In this document: positions 5,341-26,440 of the stretch, in pieces
Layout of the letters: each line of letters opens with the position of its first letter
How positions within the stretch are numbered: the stretch's first letter is position 1
The notes under the pieces: model-generated
The model's database searches: none
Told to the model about the DNA's origin: nothing
What the model saw: only the letters and a program-made list of their open reading frames with translations
Position numbers and translations under genes: made by a program
DNA from: Deltaproteobacteria bacterium
GTDB lineage: Bacteria; Desulfobacterota; Desulfarculia; Adiutricales; JAGVGV01
Length of the DNA stretch: 26,502 nt
Direction: 5' to 3'
Assembly (NCBI GenBank): GCA_015233515.1
Contig: JADFXS010000018.1
Span: forward strand, 1 to 26,502

Positions 5341-5555
5341 GCTGGTAACCGCCAAACCATGTTCGGGTAATGGCCTCCGGCCGCGGCTTACCGTCTTCCC
5401 CATTTAGGCAGGTGGCGATATGGGAAGACTCCAGGGTAAATCTTCCAAGATAGCAAGATGATAGTCAAGGTAATGATGCTTCCTTTTGGGCCGCCGCCGA
5501 AAATGGGCTTCCCAATAGCTCATCGGAGGCGGCTGCCGCGATGGCGGCATAAGGA
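5341..5555 (+). ncRNA. Structured leader, candidate molybdenum-cofactor (Moco/Tuco) riboswitch
   Basis: The stretch is rich in pairings: GTCTTCCC (5393-5400) with GGGAAGAC (5422-5429), TGGG (5504-5507) with CCCA (5511-5514) inside the longer arm GCCGCC (5493-5498) with GGCGGC (5528-5533), and TGCCGC (5534-5539) with GCGGCA (5544-5549). CCGCC at 5349-5353 can also close with GGCGG at 5543-5547. Segments such as CTCCAGGG, CCGAAAATGGGC and CTCATCGGAGGCGG resemble what I recall of the Moco RNA motif, and the element precedes a molybdopterin enzyme, which is where that riboswitch is found. The assignment rests on memory and position; a covariance-model search (RF01055) would decide it. Confidence 0.45.
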
Positions 5556-5849
5556 AATCTAAATAGACACGAGTTACCGGGCCTCAGGAAATTCTTTTAC
5601 CCCGTGTCGGATTAGAGCTTGGCTTATACCGTTCAAAAGACACTCATCTGATAATGCCACGTTGACAAGCCTGATCGATTCTTTGGCTCGGGCTTTATTT
5701 GATTACCCAGATAGTGTAATAATCGATATAATCTCGGGCCAAACGTTTTGCCCGATCCAACTCAAACTCTTTGAGGGAGAAGTGAATAGGGATAAGATTT
5801 GATGAAGAGGCTAATAATGGTCTGAGCCTTTCGGTTCAATGGAGGAATG
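5556..5849. other. Rest of leader before the aldehyde oxidoreductase
   Basis: No gene. A pairing GACACG (5566-5571) with CGTGTC (5603-5608) may be an expression-platform or terminator stem, but no T tract follows. GGAGG at 5841-5845 is the ribosome binding site. Adjacent ATG codons at 5847 and 5850 are both possible; spacing favours 5850. Confidence 0.4.
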
Positions 5850-8507
5850 ATGAAGAAAATCACTCTTAATATCAACGGGCGTTCGAGGCAGGTGATTGCT
5901 GACCCTAAAATGGTGCTGATCGATCTGCTCCGGGACGGGTATAACCTCACGGGCGTAAAGCAATCCTGCGATCGTAAAGGACAGTGCGGAGCGTGCACCG
6001 TCCTCGTGAACGGCAAGACAGCTCTATCTTGCCTGACCAAGGTGGCCGACCTGGAAGGAGCAGAGATAATTACCGTGGAAGGTCTCGGCACTCCTGACAA
6101 CCCGCACTTGATCCAAGAGGCTTTTGTCCTCTCGGGGGCTATACAGTGCGGTTTCTGCACTCCGGGTATGATCATGGCCGCCAAGGCGCTCCTGGATGTC
6201 AATCCCGATCCTAGCACGGAGGATATCAAGGAAGCTTTTCGCCGCAACTTATGTCGCTGCACCGGATACATCAAGATTATCGAGGCCGTGAAATTGGCCG
6301 GACGATTTCTTCGAAAGGAAATAACTCCGGATGAAATCCGGCCGAAACCGGATGATCCCATAATGGGAATATCACACCCCAGGCCATCGGCCATGATCAA
6401 AGCATGCGGAGTGGCGGAATTTACCGCCGATATTAAAGTGAATGGCGCGCTCGAACTGGCGGTGGTTCGGAGCCCGCATGGACACGCCATCATCAAGTCA
6501 ATCGATGTTTCGGAAGCGGAAAAGATGAGCGGAGTGGTCGGCGTCATGACGGCCAAGGACATCAAGGGCACGAACAGACTGCAATATGTCATCGCGGACC
6601 GGCCGGTCATTTGCGGTGAGAAAGTCCAGCTCCTGGGAGATGCCGTGGGGGTGGTCGCGGCGAAAACCCGGGAGCAGGCCCTGGCCGCCGTCAAGGCGGT
6701 TAAGGTGGACTATGAGCTGCTGCCGGTCATGAAATCGCCGGAAGAGGCCATGGCCGACGGTGCGCTCCAGATTCACCCGGATCGTCCCAACCTCTGCTTC
6801 CGCCAGCCGATAATCAAGGGTGATGCGGAAAAGGCCTTCGCCGCTTCCGCCGCGGTGGTCGAAAGCAGCTTCAAGACCCAGATCAATCATCAGGCGCCTA
6901 TGGAGCCCGAGGCCAGCGTGGCGTATCTAGAGGGAGAAGGCGAAGATGCGCTCCTGGTGGTCATCGGTCGAAGCATTAACATCCATCTCCATATGGCCAC
7001 ACTCCAGAAGGCTCTGGGGTGGGAAAATATCCGGTATGAGGAGGCTTTCTCCGGTGGGCAGTTCGGCATCAAACTGGAGATCATCACGGAAGGCATTGCG
7101 GCCGCCGCCGCTCTCCATTTCAGACAGCCGGTGCGTTACATTCCAAGCCTGGCAGAGTCGATGCTGATCACCAGCAAACGCCACCCCTTTGACATGAAGA
7201 TAAAACTTGGCGCGGACGAGGATGGGCAGCTCACCGCAATGGCCATGGATATCGTCGTTGACAACGGCGCGTACCAATCCATCGGGAATATCGTTTTGAA
7301 CCGAGCATTGCACATGCTCACGAGCTCTTACCACATCCCAAACCTCGACGTGATGGGCCGATTGGTTTATACAAATAATCCCTGGGGTTCCGCCGCTCGC
7401 GGCGCCGGACCGCCTCAAACCCATTACGCGTTGGAATGCGCCATGGATATGCTTGCTGAAAAGATGAATATCGATCCGTTGGAATTCCGCCTGCGCAACT
7501 CACTCAGGCCGGGCCAGGGCAAAGCCACGGGCTACATAGTTCAAGAATGGCCGTTCCCAGAGCTTTGCGAAGCTATAAAACCGGCCTATCAACGCGCCAA
7601 GGAGGATGCCCGCATCCGTAGAGAGGGGCCGATCCGCCGCGGAGTCGGGTTGGGGGCCGCCGCCTTCGGGATTGCCTCGCCGGGAGACAAGGCCGTGTCC
7701 ATTGTGGAATTGGGAGATGACGATTGTGTGACTGTCTATGCGGCCGCGGCTGATCCGGGCGAAGGCAACGATTCGATGTTCAGCCAATTGGCCGCCCAGG
7801 TCCTCGACCTCCCACTGAATAAAATCCGCGTGGTCACGCGCGATACGGACAGAACAACGGCTACGGGACCAGCCTCTGGAAGCCGCATAACCTATATGGT
7901 CGGTGGAGCCACCGTGGAAGCGCTGAAGCAACTTCGGGAAGCCATGGACGCGGTTGGTTCGAAGTCTTATTCCGCTCTACGGGAAGCGGGAAGACCTACT
8001 CGGTATCGGGGTGACAAAAAGACCGTTGAAACAGCACCCCTGGATCCCAAAACAGGACAAGGCCCCTCTTTTGAATCAGATGTGCATGCCATTCAGTTGG
8101 CTGAAGTGGAGGTGAATATCGAGACGGGTGAGGTGAAGATAGTTAAAATGATCACCGCCGTGGATGCCGGTCCGGTCATTAACCCTCATAATTTTACGGG
8201 TCAGCTCGAAGGTGGTATGGACATGGGGGCCGGATACGCACTCAGGGAGGAGTATATCGCGGGCAAAAGCAAGGACTGGGTTACCTTCAAGTTTCCAACC
8301 ATGAAAACGTCCTTTCCCATGGAGACCATTATTCGTGAAACGGTCCGCGCCCGGGGTACTTTGGGCGCTACCGGAGTCGGTGAGATGTCCATGGTTTCCA
8401 CGGCTCCGGCGATCATAAATGCTATCAAGGACGCATGTGGAATATGGATCCGCCAACTCCCGGCGACTCGCGACCGAGTCAAAGCCGAGCTGGCTCAATC
8501 CGTGTAG
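5850..8507 (+). CDS. Molybdenum-containing aldehyde oxidoreductase (xanthine dehydrogenase family, fused 2Fe-2S and molybdopterin domains)
   Basis: An 885-residue single-chain molybdenum hydroxylase, close to the 907 residues of the Desulfovibrio gigas aldehyde oxidoreductase (Mop). Order of parts: plant-type 2Fe-2S domain (CDRKGQCGACTVL plus a later LSC), helical 2Fe-2S domain (QCGFCTPGM and CRCTGY), no FAD domain, then an a/b-hammerhead domain starting near AMIKACGVAEFTADI, then the molybdopterin-binding region with SGGQFG, WGSAARGAGPPQTHYALE and ASGSRITYMVGG. The catalytic Glu at about 845 is in GATGVGEMSM. The family oxidises aldehydes or hydroxylates heterocycles in the cytoplasm and needs a Mo=S ligand. 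Its stop is 16 bases before the TusE-like gene. ATG 5847 is an alternative start. Real substrate unknown. Confidence 0.92.
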   Translation: MKKITLNINGRSRQVIADPKMVLIDLLRDGYNLTGVKQSCDRKGQCGACTVLVNGKTALSCLTKVADLEGAEIITVEGLGTPDNPHLIQEAFVLSGAIQCGFCTPGMIMAAKALLDVNPDPSTEDIKEAFRRNLCRCTGYIKIIEAVKLAGRFLRKEITPDEIRPKPDDPIMGISHPRPSAMIKACGVAEFTADIKVNGALELAVVRSPHGHAIIKSIDVSEAEKMSGVVGVMTAKDIKGTNRLQYVIADRPVICGEKVQLLGDAVGVVAAKTREQALAAVKAVKVDYELLPVMKSPEEAMADGALQIHPDRPNLCFRQPIIKGDAEKAFAASAAVVESSFKTQINHQAPMEPEASVAYLEGEGEDALLVVIGRSINIHLHMATLQKALGWENIRYEEAFSGGQFGIKLEIITEGIAAAAALHFRQPVRYIPSLAESMLITSKRHPFDMKIKLGADEDGQLTAMAMDIVVDNGAYQSIGNIVLNRALHMLTSSYHIPNLDVMGRLVYTNNPWGSAARGAGPPQTHYALECAMDMLAEKMNIDPLEFRLRNSLRPGQGKATGYIVQEWPFPELCEAIKPAYQRAKEDARIRREGPIRRGVGLGAAAFGIASPGDKAVSIVELGDDDCVTVYAAAADPGEGNDSMFSQLAAQVLDLPLNKIRVVTRDTDRTTATGPASGSRITYMVGGATVEALKQLREAMDAVGSKSYSALREAGRPTRYRGDKKTVETAPLDPKTGQGPSFESDVHAIQLAEVEVNIETGEVKIVKMITAVDAGPVINPHNFTGQLEGGMDMGAGYALREEYIAGKSKDWVTFKFPTMKTSFPMETIIRETVRARGTLGATGVGEMSMVSTAPAIINAIKDACGIWIRQLPATRDRVKAELAQSV

Positions 8508-8523
8508 CATCCCTGGAGAAAAG

Positions 8524-8889
8524 ATGGCTCTTGACCCTGATGAACAGGAAAGACTGGCGGCCGATCTTGGCCGGCAAGTCCGCGAAATTGGCGGTCGCGA
8601 GATATTTTTCGACTGGGAGGGTTTTTTCTGGGATGCCGCCGACTGGAGCGAGGAAATCGCGGAGATTCTGGCCAGGGAAAGCGGCATGGAAAAACTGGAA
8701 GATATTCACTGGAAAATATTGCGTTTCTTCAGGGATTACTACGCATATCACGGACGTGCCCCATTGAACCGCCATCTGCGGGAGGGCACTAAGTTGAGTC
8801 TGGGAGAAATAGAGTCGCTGTTTCCCGGAGGCATCCGGCTGGGCGCTCGACGCCTGGCCGGGCTGCCCAATCCAAAATCCTGCTTCTGA
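8524..8889 (+). CDS. TusE/DsrC-like sulfur carrier protein with a single C-terminal cysteine
   Basis: A 121-residue protein of the TusE/DsrC/DsvC family. Visible marks: FDWEGFFWDAADWSEEIAEI near the start, the helical core WKILRFFRDYYAYHGRAPLNR, and the flexible tail RLAGLPNPKSCF with the conserved penultimate Cys120. In DsrC a second cysteine lies 11 residues earlier; here that position is Arg109, so it is TusE-like and could carry a persulfide but not form the DsrC intramolecular disulfide or trisulfide. Start set at the ATG with GGAG just upstream; the reading frame extends further up but would overlap the previous gene. It lies 16 bases after the molybdenum hydroxylase and 15 before a cysteine desulfurase, suggesting sulfur transfer between them (inference). 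Confidence 0.87.
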   Translation: MALDPDEQERLAADLGRQVREIGGREIFFDWEGFFWDAADWSEEIAEILARESGMEKLEDIHWKILRFFRDYYAYHGRAPLNRHLREGTKLSLGEIESLFPGGIRLGARRLAGLPNPKSCF

Positions 8890-8904
8890 AATGGTTGCCT
8901 ACCC

Positions 8905-10101
8905 ATGAACGATCGCCTGATCTATCTTGACAACGCCGCCACGACTTTCCCCAAGCCTCGTGAAGTGCTGGAGGAGATGCTGGAGACTTATATACGGATC
9001 GGGGTGTCTCCGGGGAGAGGAAGCTATGATATGGCCGTCCAGGCTGAAGAGATCGTATACGAGAAACGGAAACAGCTGGCCGTCTTCTTTGGCGCGCCCG
9101 ATCCCAACCGGGTAATTTTTACCGCTAACGCCACTGATGCCTTGAATCTGATTTTCGCCGGACTCCTTCAGCCTGGAGATCATGTCGTCAGCACCCGCCT
9201 GGAGCATAATTCCGTATTAAGGCCCCTTCATCACTTTCACGAGCGTAGCGGGGTCACCTATGATCTCGTTTCCTTCGATTCCCGGGGCTTCGTCGATCCC
9301 CAAGAGATCGAGCGCAGCATTAAACCCAACACCCGGTGCGTGGTGGTCACTCACGCTTCCAATGTGCTGGGTACTGTCCAACCAGCGCCGGAGATCGGTA
9401 AAGTATGCGCGGATCGAGGCATTCCATTTATTGTTGATGCTTCACAGAGTGCGGGTACGATCCCTATTGACATGATGGCGTGGCATGTGTCCGCTCTGGC
9501 CTTCACCGGCCACAAGGCATTATACGGCCCCACAGGGATAGGAGGCCTGGTGCTTCATCCGGAAATGGACATTGGAGCCAGCCGTTTTGGCGGAACAGGA
9601 GTAGATTCAAAGAGCCTGGTGCATACATCTTCCTATCCGCATCGCCTCGAAAGCGGAACAATCAACCTGATGGGCATCATCGGACTTTCCGCTGGTATTG
9701 ATTATATCCTCAAGAAAGGCATGCCGAGCATCCATCGACAAGAAATGGCCTTACTGAATCGATTGAGAGACGGACTTGCGGAGCTTAAGCATGTCAGGCT
9801 TTACGGCGATGATGACCTATCCAACCATGTGGCCGTGCTCTCAGCCAATGTCGAGGGGATGAGTTCAAGGGATGTCGGTGACATTCTAGATGGCGATTTC
9901 AATATTGCCGTGCGAGTAGGGCTTCACTGTGCCCCTCTGGTTCATCGCGATCTTGGGACCATTAACAGTGGAGCCGTCCGTTTTAGCCTCGGAGTTTTCA
10001 ACACTCAAGAGGACATCGACCAAGCTATCAGAGCAATGGCCTCTATGCGCACATATTCCACGGGTTTTGGAAAAAGACCACAAGCCGCGAATCAGCAGTG
10101 A
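8905..10101 (+). CDS. Class V aminotransferase-fold cysteine desulfurase (EF2568-like subgroup)
   Basis: A 398-residue PLP enzyme. It opens with YLDNAATTFPKP, has VDASQSAG (PLP Asp178), the Schiff-base Lys204 in FTGHKALYGPTG, and the putative persulfide Cys342 in VGLHCAPLVHRDLGT. The opening and the LHCAP context match the TIGR01977 (EF2568-type) family, which is known to cluster with selenium- or sulfur-dependent molybdenum hydroxylases. It would release sulfur from cysteine (or selenium from selenocysteine). It is the third gene of the unit with the aldehyde oxidoreductase and the TusE-like protein, so sulfuration of the molybdenum cofactor is a reasonable role. No selD, xdhC or yqeB homologue is in the window. 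A hairpin at 10121-10166 follows. Confidence 0.88.
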   Translation: MNDRLIYLDNAATTFPKPREVLEEMLETYIRIGVSPGRGSYDMAVQAEEIVYEKRKQLAVFFGAPDPNRVIFTANATDALNLIFAGLLQPGDHVVSTRLEHNSVLRPLHHFHERSGVTYDLVSFDSRGFVDPQEIERSIKPNTRCVVVTHASNVLGTVQPAPEIGKVCADRGIPFIVDASQSAGTIPIDMMAWHVSALAFTGHKALYGPTGIGGLVLHPEMDIGASRFGGTGVDSKSLVHTSSYPHRLESGTINLMGIIGLSAGIDYILKKGMPSIHRQEMALLNRLRDGLAELKHVRLYGDDDLSNHVAVLSANVEGMSSRDVGDILDGDFNIAVRVGLHCAPLVHRDLGTINSGAVRFSLGVFNTQEDIDQAIRAMASMRTYSTGFGKRPQAANQQ

Positions 10102-10191: not shown

Positions 10192-11106
10192 CTAGCGACT
10201 GAAGCGATATCCCTTCAGAGCCAACGGCTTGGAATCGGTCAGGATTTCTCGATAAGTCGAGTACGCCTGTTCTACATAAGCCGGAACGTAGAAAAGTCCG
10301 GGTAAAAACGTTGGGGACAAGTATTTAAGTTCCAAAGATCGTTCCAGCATGCGGCCGCCGAGATCCGCCTTCCTCGGGTCGTCACCCTTGGAAACCACTA
10401 TCATGGCGTGGATTTCATGGAAACACGGCACGGAGTATGGAAATGCCGCCACGTGAGGGAAGGCCGCGGCCAAGGTGTTACGCATTCGAGCGTGAAGTTC
10501 CACGCGCCATGGCTGAAGGCTTTCGCCCTGAATACAGGCCGTACCATTTTCAGTCAGGCGGTCATGAATAGTCTTGTAGAACTCAACGGTAAACAGCAAA
10601 ACGGACGGACTGTCCGGCACTGGGTCCGATAAATCAACGAGGATGACGTCAAACTTTTCCGACGTATTTTCCAGAAAGGCCCGGCCGTCGGTAAAGTGAA
10701 GTTCAAGGCGTGGGTCTTGAAAAGCCCCGGCCCCATATTCCGGCAAGTATTGTTGGCAAGCATGGACAAGGTCTTCGTCGATATCAACCATGACCACACG
10801 GGTTATCTCGGGGTGACGAAATATCTCCCTGAGGGTCGCCCCTTCCGCGCCACCGATGACACAGACCGATCGGGGTCGCGGATGGGTAAGCAGGGCTGGA
10901 TGGACCACGATTTCATGGTAAATGAACTCATCCCGCGCTGATGATTGAGCCACGCCATCAAGGAAGAGCATGCGGCCGTATTCCAGAGTGTCGACAAATT
11001 CGAACTTCTGGAATTTTGACTGACCGGAATACACGATCTCCCGACATTTGTAGTGCACAGTTTGATTTTTTCCGCAGCTCTCTGCGAATACGAGCATGTC
11101 AGTCAT
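10192..11106 (-). CDS. speE: Aminopropyltransferase (spermidine synthase family)
   Basis: A 304-residue polyamine aminopropyltransferase that moves the aminopropyl group from decarboxylated S-adenosylmethionine to an amine, releasing methylthioadenosine. Visible motifs: GVAQSSARDEFIYHE (residues 51-65), the dcAdoMet-binding GGAEG at 85-89 followed by ATLRE, VDIDEDLV, and the catalytic-region Asp158 and Asp161 in VDLSDPV. GGAEG and DLSDPV differ from the GGGDG and D(S/T)DP of classical putrescine-specific SpeE and look more like the Thermus agmatine enzyme or thermospermine synthases, so the acceptor amine is uncertain. The start overlaps the speD stop by four bases, a sign of translational coupling. 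No ornithine or arginine decarboxylase is nearby. Confidence 0.88.
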   Translation of the reverse strand: MTDMLVFAESCGKNQTVHYKCREIVYSGQSKFQKFEFVDTLEYGRMLFLDGVAQSSARDEFIYHEIVVHPALLTHPRPRSVCVIGGAEGATLREIFRHPEITRVVMVDIDEDLVHACQQYLPEYGAGAFQDPRLELHFTDGRAFLENTSEKFDVILVDLSDPVPDSPSVLLFTVEFYKTIHDRLTENGTACIQGESLQPWRVELHARMRNTLAAAFPHVAAFPYSVPCFHEIHAMIVVSKGDDPRKADLGGRMLERSLELKYLSPTFLPGLFYVPAYVEQAYSTYREILTDSKPLALKGYRFSR

Positions 11107-11498
11107 GTGTGTTCCGTCTCCGGTTTGTGTTTAATATCGGCGTTGGGAAGATCCAATAGTCCGCGCTTGATTTCCATGAGTGAAAAATGCTTGGACTTGA
11201 ATTTTTCGCGCAGGTAATTGAGCGCCGATTCGCCCTTGATTTCATCTCCACAGGTGAAGATGTCAATAGCGCAGTATCCATATTCCGGCCAAGTATGAAC
11301 CGAAAAATGGGATTCGGCAATTACAACTATCCCGCTTACGCCGTGGGGAGAAAATTTGTGGAAGAACGGCTGGATAACGGTGGCTCCGGATAGACGGACC
11401 GCTTCCAGCAGGTGGGCCTGGCAGACTTCAGTGTCATCCAGGATCTCCGGGTCACAGTCATGAAACTCGATGACCAGGTGTTTACCCAAAGATTTCAT
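11103..11498 (-). CDS. speD: S-adenosylmethionine decarboxylase proenzyme (bacterial SpeH type)
   Basis: A 131-residue proenzyme of the short prokaryotic class. It self-cleaves to a beta and an alpha chain with a pyruvoyl group and makes decarboxylated S-adenosylmethionine. With the ATG at 11498 the key residues fall at Ser63 (cleavage site in VIAESHFS), His68 and Cys83 (IFTCGDE), the same numbers as in the Thermotoga maritima enzyme, which supports this start over the upstream GTG at 11513. Typical N-terminus MKSLGKHLVIEFHDCD. It is the first gene of a two-gene unit with the aminopropyltransferase, so both steps of aminopropyl transfer are made together. Confidence 0.95.
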   Translation of the reverse strand: MKSLGKHLVIEFHDCDPEILDDTEVCQAHLLEAVRLSGATVIQPFFHKFSPHGVSGIVVIAESHFSVHTWPEYGYCAIDIFTCGDEIKGESALNYLREKFKSKHFSLMEIKRGLLDLPNADIKHKPETEHT

Positions 11499-11596
11499 TT
11501 TTCTTTTTATCACCCATCCTTACAGCTATGTCATAAAACATCCTTTGGCTTAGAGCCTTCGGTTAGGTCCCGCCGACCTGCGGCAGTGGAAAGACT

Positions 11597-17831: not shown

Positions 17832-18449
17832 ATGTTTCGCTCAAATGGACAGACGAACTATGATGTCGTATACGAATCTTTGCGGAATCGCCTGTCAAGG
17901 GTCGACCGGGAACACGCCGTCCAATCACTCGGGGCCAACCGACATCGCGACGGCTTGTCTGTCAAACTTCTTGGCCGCACCTGCCTGGTGACTCGAGATG
18001 AGATACAAGCCGCCGATGGGAAGCCATTGGCCATAACCAGTCGTTTATGCTTAGCCTACTATCTGTTACATGCCGGACGCGGCAATCTGGAGCAGACTTG
18101 GGTGGCCTATAGGGATTTCAAGGATGGGGCATTTTTTCACACCGCCTACGCGCAGTTAGTGGAAAATGAAATTGCGGGGACGTTTGCCGGCCGCTTGCCT
18201 CGGCTTCGGGAAACCGTGGACCGAATAGGAGGTGAGGTTTTACCGACCGATTCTGGCGGCGACCTATGCGCCAAGTTCCTCATGCTGCCGCGAATCCCCT
18301 TGTCTGTGGTTTTTTATGATGCCGATGACGATTTCCCGGCTTCGGCCAGGGTATTGTATGATGCCAGCGCCACTCGATTTCTCGATATGGAATGTCTGGC
18401 TGTCCTGGGATTGATCCTGAAAGACGAACTCTGTGATACTCATTTTTAA
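17832..18449 (+). CDS. DUF3786 domain protein
   Basis: A 205-residue protein whose pattern matches DUF3786: NYDVVYESLRNRL at the N-terminus, ITSRLCLAYYLLHAGRG, TWVAYRDFKDGAFFHTAY, then GGDLCAKFLMLPRIPLSVVF and DDDFPASARVLYD. The family occurs mainly in anaerobes of the Deltaproteobacteria, Clostridia and archaea; its biochemical role is not established. In other genomes some members occur near corrinoid or methyl-transfer genes, but nothing like that is here. The ATG has only a weak AGGG upstream. It is 16 bases from the nucleoside phosphorylase gene, so the two are probably cotranscribed. Confidence 0.8.
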   Translation: MFRSNGQTNYDVVYESLRNRLSRVDREHAVQSLGANRHRDGLSVKLLGRTCLVTRDEIQAADGKPLAITSRLCLAYYLLHAGRGNLEQTWVAYRDFKDGAFFHTAYAQLVENEIAGTFAGRLPRLRETVDRIGGEVLPTDSGGDLCAKFLMLPRIPLSVVFYDADDDFPASARVLYDASATRFLDMECLAVLGLILKDELCDTHF

Positions 18450-26363: not shown

Positions 26364-26440
26364 GGGCGATTAGCTCAGTTGGATAGAGCGTTGGTCTCCG
26401 GAACCAAAGGCCACGCGTTCGAGTCGCGTATCGCCCACCA
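26364..26440 (+). tRNA. tRNA-Arg (anticodon CCG)
   Basis: A complete 77-base cloverleaf including an encoded CCA. The acceptor GGGCGAT (26364-26370) pairs with ATCGCCC (26430-26436); the D arm is GCTC...GAGC; the anticodon stem TTGGT/ACCAA holds the loop CTCCGGA with anticodon CCG, reading Arg codon CGG; the T arm is ACGCG/CGCGT with TTCGAGT. It has a promoter directly upstream and a strong terminator directly downstream, so it is a single-gene unit. Confidence 0.96.

Follow-up and report, generated by a model that had tools for sequence, protein, structure and literature searches.

In bacteria, the delivery of the terminal sulfur to the molybdenum of xanthine-oxidase-family enzymes has been worked out chiefly for the XdhC/NifS4 route. 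As described for Rhodobacter capsulatus (PMC2997495), the cysteine desulfurase acts directly there, sulfurating the molybdenum cofactor (Moco) while it is held by XdhC. At the locus analyzed in this work, by comparison, a TusE-like carrier gene stands between the genes of a molybdenum hydroxylase and a cysteine desulfurase, and XdhC is usually encoded elsewhere in the genome. The sulfido ligand is described as essential in xanthine oxidase, with the aldehyde oxidoreductase of D. gigas as an exception, reported to be active with an oxo ligand in place of the sulfido one (PMC3877041).

Other described systems share parts of this arrangement. In the IscS-TusA-TusBCD-TusE-MnmA relay (PMC5372717), TusE is presented as a persulfide carrier working through its C-terminal cysteine, and the carrier found here is of the same type and fold; however, TusE is said there to receive sulfur from TusD and to donate it to MnmA, whereas here the carrier and desulfurase genes are neighbours. 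The selenium-dependent molybdenum hydroxylase system, as outlined by Haft and Self 2008 (PMC2276186), has in common with the present one a TIGR01977 enzyme, a molybdenum hydroxylase, a small sulfurtransferase-like protein and, often, SelD, but its small protein is SirA-like (TIGR03527), and YqeB is found in 24 of the 49 genomes counted here. The SufS/SufU and SufS/SufE pairs (PMC4934914, PMC10011822) likewise combine a SufS-like desulfurase with a dedicated small acceptor, although the acceptor has another fold and the pairs are described as feeding Fe-S assembly. Metallopterin-dependent ergothioneine synthase (MES; PMC9516567) is portrayed as a molybdopterin enzyme that comes with a cysteine desulfurase of its own; it is, however, related to acetylene hydratase and DMSO reductase, and its desulfurase is fused, while the genes considered here are separate.

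The three open reading frames in Table 1 share one strand of the window (i.e., the whole 26,502-nt stretch of DNA that was analysed), with 16 bases between the hydroxylase and carrier genes and 15 bases between the carrier and desulfurase genes, in agreement with the initial annotation, which had suggested a possible dedicated sulfuration unit. Its family calls were borne out as well. The first protein is xanthine oxidase/MOP-like, the second belongs to the DsrC family (PF04358: 85 bits, cut-off 24.9, E 5.8e-24; TIGR03342: 73 bits, cut-off 53.5), and the third scores 455 bits against TIGR01977 (cut-off 377). Single-sequence queries (E 1e-3) gave no match to XdhC in the window, as had been noted, and none to MocA-like, YqeB or SelD proteins.

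Table 1. Features of the three-gene unit and its leader (positions in the window)
Feature	Position	Strand	Family evidence	Size
Xanthine-oxidase-family molybdenum hydroxylase	5847..8507	+	Pfam, NCBIfam	886 aa, one chain
TusE/DsrC-like carrier	8524..8889	+	PF04358, TIGR03342	121 aa
Predicted cysteine desulfurase, TIGR01977 (EF2568 type), SufS-like	8905..10101	+	NCBIfam	
Leader, from gcvH to the hydroxylase gene	5341..5846	+		506 nt

The hydroxylase comprises the Pfam domains Fer2, Fer2_2, Ald_Xan_dh_C, MoCoBD_1 and MoCoBD_2, i.e., two [2Fe-2S] domains, a hammerhead domain and two Mo-cofactor domains, and the FAD domain is absent. These domains, together with Glu846, present in 53/53 hydroxylases of such units, place it in the xanthine oxidase family. 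Its closest solved structure is the D. gigas aldehyde oxidoreductase (MOP, 1sij; E 2.5e-175), which is also one chain with the same domain order and without FAD, but possesses pocket aromatics that are absent from the clade of the window's enzyme. The protein falls below the equivalog cut-off for MOP-type aldehyde oxidoreductase (NF045668; 798.6 vs. 1100 bits) and below that of TIGR03311 (593 vs. 830). In a FastTree phylogeny all 53 unit hydroxylases, together with the two exceptions discussed below (L082 and L122), which lie inside, form one clade (support 100). This clade carries A-R-G-A in the pocket where other members have F/M-R-G-F: Ala517 is found in 53/53 and Ala520 in 52/53 sequences, while in 27 non-clade enzymes the equivalent positions hold F (14), M (12) or Y (1), and F (25) or P (2), respectively. 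Position 405 is Gln in 51/53 clade hydroxylases and A, G or S in the 27 others. These changes in the pocket indicate that the clade probably acts on a substrate different from that of the known relatives. Glu846, Arg518 and Gln786 are kept in all 53 unit hydroxylases; by MOP numbering, Glu846 is the catalytic glutamate, and the three are the residues expected for ordinary hydroxylation.

The carrier has a single cysteine, the penultimate Cys120, which is invariant in 62/62 aligned rows. At the position of the second cysteine of DsrC (about 11 residues before the first), Arg is present in 61/62 carriers, whereas this residue is Cys in DsrC proteins, both the solved and the fetched ones. The profile built from the carriers hits DsrC chains and, less strongly, chain 7syb, and the AlphaFold model (mean pLDDT of 88.6, lowest at both termini) gave eight PDB matches at E≤0.001, all of them DsrC-family chains. 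The Arg in place of the second cysteine argues against DsrC proper, as does the lack of dsrA over the cut-off in 18/49 genomes, and TusE proper (PRK11508) is rejected by a score of 47 bits vs. an equivalog cut-off of 191. The unit carriers are also separated from 14 other DsrC-family proteins of the same genomes (FastTree support 99). One 177-aa carrier homologue (P0093) has an N-terminal Gp5_trimer_C match, reflecting a fusion or a wrong start. The third protein is nearest to SufS-type chains, and its active loop aligns to them without gaps; the score and Cys342, by family the persulfide cysteine, invariant in 53/53 rows, assign it to the predicted TIGR01977 desulfurases. Cys342 and Cys120, which had been singled out as the sulfur-bearing residues, do stand at these positions, the window's proteins being included in both alignments.

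Genome contigs were scanned with an alignment of 43 sequences (A1), chosen among 120 listed carrier homologues (of 271 in total), and two conserved peptides (carriers lacking both of them escape such a scan), which resulted in 61 carrier loci. According to the record titles, 28 of these are from Thermodesulfobacteriota, 9 from Chloroflexota, 9 from Bacillota and 2 from Actinomycetota; the remaining 13 have imprecise titles (e.g., "Deltaproteobacteria bacterium", which the tree tool files under Myxococcota). Many of the genomes are metagenome bins of uncertain completeness. The unit is spread over several bacterial phyla, and isolates with it include Desulfocicer vacuolatum, Desulforhopalus singaporensis, Desulfocarbo indianensis and Desulfotruncus arcticus. 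The hydroxylase gene lies directly upstream of the carrier gene, on the same strand, in 58/58 loci not cut at the contig start (in L029, L052 and L061 the contig starts at the carrier), with a stop-to-stop distance of 344–817 nt (median 365.5). Five loci (L006, L023, L053, L054 and L055) account for distances of 625–817 nt, vs. the usual 344–439 nt. A desulfurase gene adjoins the carrier or hydroxylase gene in 56/59 evaluable loci, being the next downstream gene in 54 and lying upstream of the hydroxylase in two; L010, L047 and L048 have no adjacent desulfurase, L035 and L049 are outside this count, with contigs ending just past the carrier, and in L022 and L034 only part of the desulfurase is matched. 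The three-gene order, on which the initial annotation depended, is therefore conserved in relatives.

No larger conserved operon was seen, as the neighbour families are mixed. The commonest further one, ABC ATPase, occurs in 13/61 loci, and in 23/61 no gene of the same direction lies within 200 nt (with ORFs called mechanically and contig ends counted in). Among the 62 of 82 co-directional neighbours that were scanned, there were aldehyde dehydrogenases (6), molybdopterin oxidoreductases (5), MoCF_biosynth proteins (3) and NTP_transf_3 proteins (2); tus and mnmA genes were absent from the conserved neighbours of the 61 loci. The three genes are a compact, stand-alone unit. The distance matrices of the three proteins, computed for 46 complete units (the window's included), correlate (hydroxylase–carrier 0.55, hydroxylase–desulfurase 0.65, carrier–desulfurase 0.68; 0/2000 permutations each), and since shared species history remains in this test, the correlated divergence fits either inheritance as a unit or that history.

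The association was also followed from the hydroxylase side, using the best two or three candidates per genome among the matches listed. The first sample was 247 genomes from the phylum to which G001, the Syntrophobacteraceae bin with locus L001, belongs; here ten listed hydroxylases scored 1143–1582 bits against the enzyme of the window, and the next one 734. Nine of these ten clade hydroxylases have a DsrC-family gene directly behind them, and the desulfurase gene follows in all eight cases where the contig continues (G001:C296 ends at the carrier). Comparison of coordinates revealed, among the matches listed, no non-clade hydroxylase closer than 5 kb to a DsrC-family match, and the three nearest non-clade enzymes (3/3) have neither carrier nor desulfurase beside them; genomes of this sample (e.g., G001, G037 and G254) also encode further hydroxylases that lack the pair. 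The second sample, 400 genomes from the phylum to which the Chloroflexota bin G003 belongs, gave six listed hydroxylases with at least 1316 bits, the next one scoring 569. Five of the six are accompanied by carrier and desulfurase, and L122, a second hydroxylase copy in a genome with a full unit elsewhere, has neither. All 25 fetched lower-scoring enzymes of this sample lack both genes within about 1.4 kb, which is the extent per side covered by these loci. Taken together, the carrier stands behind 14/16 clade hydroxylases among the matches listed.

The other exception, L082 (G082:C172, 5657–10177), encodes a clade hydroxylase followed, after 96 nt, by a SufS-family desulfurase (TIGR01979, 305 bits, cut-off 475) and, after a further 9 nt, by a 135-aa NifU_N protein (PF01592), a weak match with 27.5 bits (cut-off 22) that also weakly resembles solved NifU chains. 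A single DsrC-family match, canonical in strength, is present in this genome on another contig, and the best match to the desulfurase of the window is a distant one (E 8.9e-32). SufU has a NifU-like fold. SufS with SufU is described as a desulfurase/acceptor pair (PMC4934914), and, as L082 has a desulfurase and a small acceptor of another fold in the same place, this single case suggests that carrier and desulfurase are likewise a desulfurase with its sulfur acceptor. In NaphS2 (G043), a hydroxylase–carrier pair (L090) and a carrier–desulfurase pair (L089) lie apart. The latter (L089:5830–13930) has no one-chain hydroxylase directly adjoining, and a multi-subunit hydroxylase with an FAD subunit is situated about 3.7 kb away on the opposite strand.

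Based on these data, we consider it probable that the unit consists of a clade-specific hydroxylase with its own sulfur supply, in which sulfur would pass from the desulfurase through the carrier to the molybdenum cofactor. The desulfurase would take sulfur from cysteine onto Cys342, as its family suggests, and this persulfide would be handed to Cys120, the lone C-terminal cysteine of the carrier. The carrier tail may then pass it on to the hydroxylase's molybdenum cofactor, held either on XdhC or in the apoenzyme, giving the terminal sulfido ligand, while cytidylation and insertion of the cofactor would presumably be left to MocA and XdhC of the genome, XdhC being present in most genomes with the unit. 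Persulfides on SufS-type enzymes are, according to PMC10011822, protected and dependent on a partner, and the carrier appears to be the natural acceptor owing to its position, its invariant tail cysteine and the NifU-like stand-in in L082; persulfide transfer through it is what we infer from the sequences. Molybdenum is the most likely destination, since xanthine oxidase needs the sulfido ligand and the R. capsulatus desulfurase is described as sulfurating XdhC-bound Moco (PMC2997495). This relay is supported by the constant hydroxylase (58/58) and nearly constant desulfurase (56/59) neighbours, the clade-only association, the stand-in pair, the invariant cysteines, the correlated distance matrices and the continuation of one unit into maturation genes, i.e., the co-directional run L045:2–6917 of hydroxylase, carrier, desulfurase, MoCF_biosynth protein, XdhC and YqeB. 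It is weakened by the three loci without an adjacent desulfurase and by L122, which lacks both partners, as well as by the replacement being a single case with a weak NifU-like match; moreover, no desulfurase–carrier fusion was found among the 120 listed of 7951 desulfurase homologues, and the best solved relative, the D. gigas enzyme, is reported to work without the sulfido ligand (PMC3877041). If correct, the relay would be a new branch of molybdenum sulfuration chemistry, in which one enzyme clade is tied to its own desulfurase and TusE-type carrier, and the DsrC family would gain a role beyond tRNA thiolation and sulfur respiration; the widespread unit, being a cassette of three genes, lends itself to co-expression and testing.

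Whole-genome counts were made for 49 genomes with the unit, drawn from 50 of the 61 loci. XdhC exceeded the cut-off in 46 of them (G010 and G039 gave no match and G034 a weak one only), and in 6/61 loci its gene lies a few kb or less from the unit. The idea of a carrier route in place of XdhC, implied in the initial annotation, is thereby rejected; because XdhC is so regularly present and sometimes adjacent, the carrier would add to the XdhC route instead of replacing it. As XdhC-type maturation is known to proceed without a carrier, its presence in 46/49 genomes also weakens the relay reading. Of the proposals in the initial annotation, a dedicated sulfur relay is the best reading, whereas the replacement of XdhC and a riboswitch-like leader are not borne out. 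Within the phylum sample, XdhC is present in 8/9 genomes with the hydroxylase clade vs. 113/247 overall, an enrichment that fits what any hydroxylase would give. Other maturation genes within about 5.5 kb of the unit are MocA-like (7 loci), MoCF_biosynth (3) and YqeB (2), and at least one of these or XdhC is found within this distance in 11/61 loci.

DsrC has its role in dissimilatory sulfur metabolism. It could thus be argued that the carrier serves this process, or tRNA thiolation, the described role of TusE (PMC5372717), and came to its place by chance or co-transfer, all the more as dsrA exceeds the cut-off in 31/49 genomes with the unit. This explanation is largely refuted and highly improbable, given the 58/58 adjacency with one hydroxylase clade, the Arg in 61/62 carriers and the tree split from other DsrC-family proteins; moreover, in 14 of the 18 genomes without dsrA over the cut-off the carrier is the sole DsrC-family match and dsrA gave no match. 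The carrier, as the initial annotation implied, tracks with the molybdenum hydroxylase and not with dsr, and the same dsrA counts, second-cysteine Arg and tree split rule it out as a dsr or tus gene. A unit feeding selenium to molybdenum, i.e., a version of the selenium-dependent hydroxylase system in which a TusE-like protein takes the place of the SirA-like one, appears unlikely to us, although TIGR01977 and the SirA-like protein are given as marks of that system (PMC2276186) and L041 and L045 have a YqeB gene close to the unit. SelD exceeds the cut-off in 46/49 genomes, a count confined to genomes with the unit, and this high frequency may point to a link with selenium; in the order of G017 it occurs in 7/8 carrier genomes vs. 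44/118 others (p 0.0074, uncorrected for phylogeny). Against selenium delivery, YqeB exceeds the cut-off in just 24/49 genomes, and the hydroxylase stays under the TIGR03311 cut-off (593 vs. 830). Among the three genomes without SelD, all possibly incomplete, G019 and G044 have YqeB, and G018 has neither.

The sulfur of the pair might also go to a substrate of the hydroxylase and not to its cofactor. Such substrate thiolation, which we regard as rather unlikely, would agree with the restriction of the pair to a single clade whose pocket is altered (Ala517 53/53, Ala520 52/53, Gln405 51/53) and with the other hydroxylases that the same genomes hold without it, and MES, as described in PMC9516567, offers a precedent, being a molybdopterin enzyme that has a desulfurase to itself. 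That precedent, however, comes from another molybdopterin family, there is no conserved biosynthetic neighbour of the unit, and cofactor-maturation genes lie nearby in 11/61 loci. Furthermore, Glu846, Arg518 and Gln786, the set expected for ordinary hydroxylation, are kept in all rows. It is equally doubtful that the enzyme would transfer sulfur (or selenium), in place of oxygen, to the carbon of a C-H bond, with the desulfurase and carrier feeding every turnover and the electrons leaving via the two [2Fe-2S] clusters. Ergothioneine synthesis was considered and rejected, as no conserved methyltransferase cluster occurs among the neighbours, and an MES-type synthase does not match a unit of separate genes with xanthine oxidase family domains, which is not a DMSO-reductase-family fusion.

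Among open-access titles and abstracts (subscription papers and preprint servers being outside this scope), none reports a TusE/DsrC-like protein that accompanies both a molybdenum hydroxylase and a desulfurase, and TusE and aldehyde oxidoreductase are never named in the same open-access full text. Two open-access papers name DsrC together with the molybdenum cofactor and cysteine desulfurase, and each mentions DsrC once.

The leader had been called riboswitch-like. It gave no Rfam match at the gathering score and chance-level matches only up to E 10, folded with a z of −1.28 relative to shuffles (7/100 of which were equally good), and shared with the relatives' loci a single 36-nt chance match (E 0.52) in an unrelated place; the riboswitch reading was rejected, as nothing in these results supports it. 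The sole Rfam match above the gathering score in the window is a tRNA gene (26364–26437). A plasmid search with the purA-like gene of the window yielded no match. The window also encodes a DUF3786 protein (17832–18449) and, on the − strand (10192–11513), S-adenosylmethionine decarboxylase and spermidine synthase, whose genes overlap by a few bases in an ordinary arrangement.
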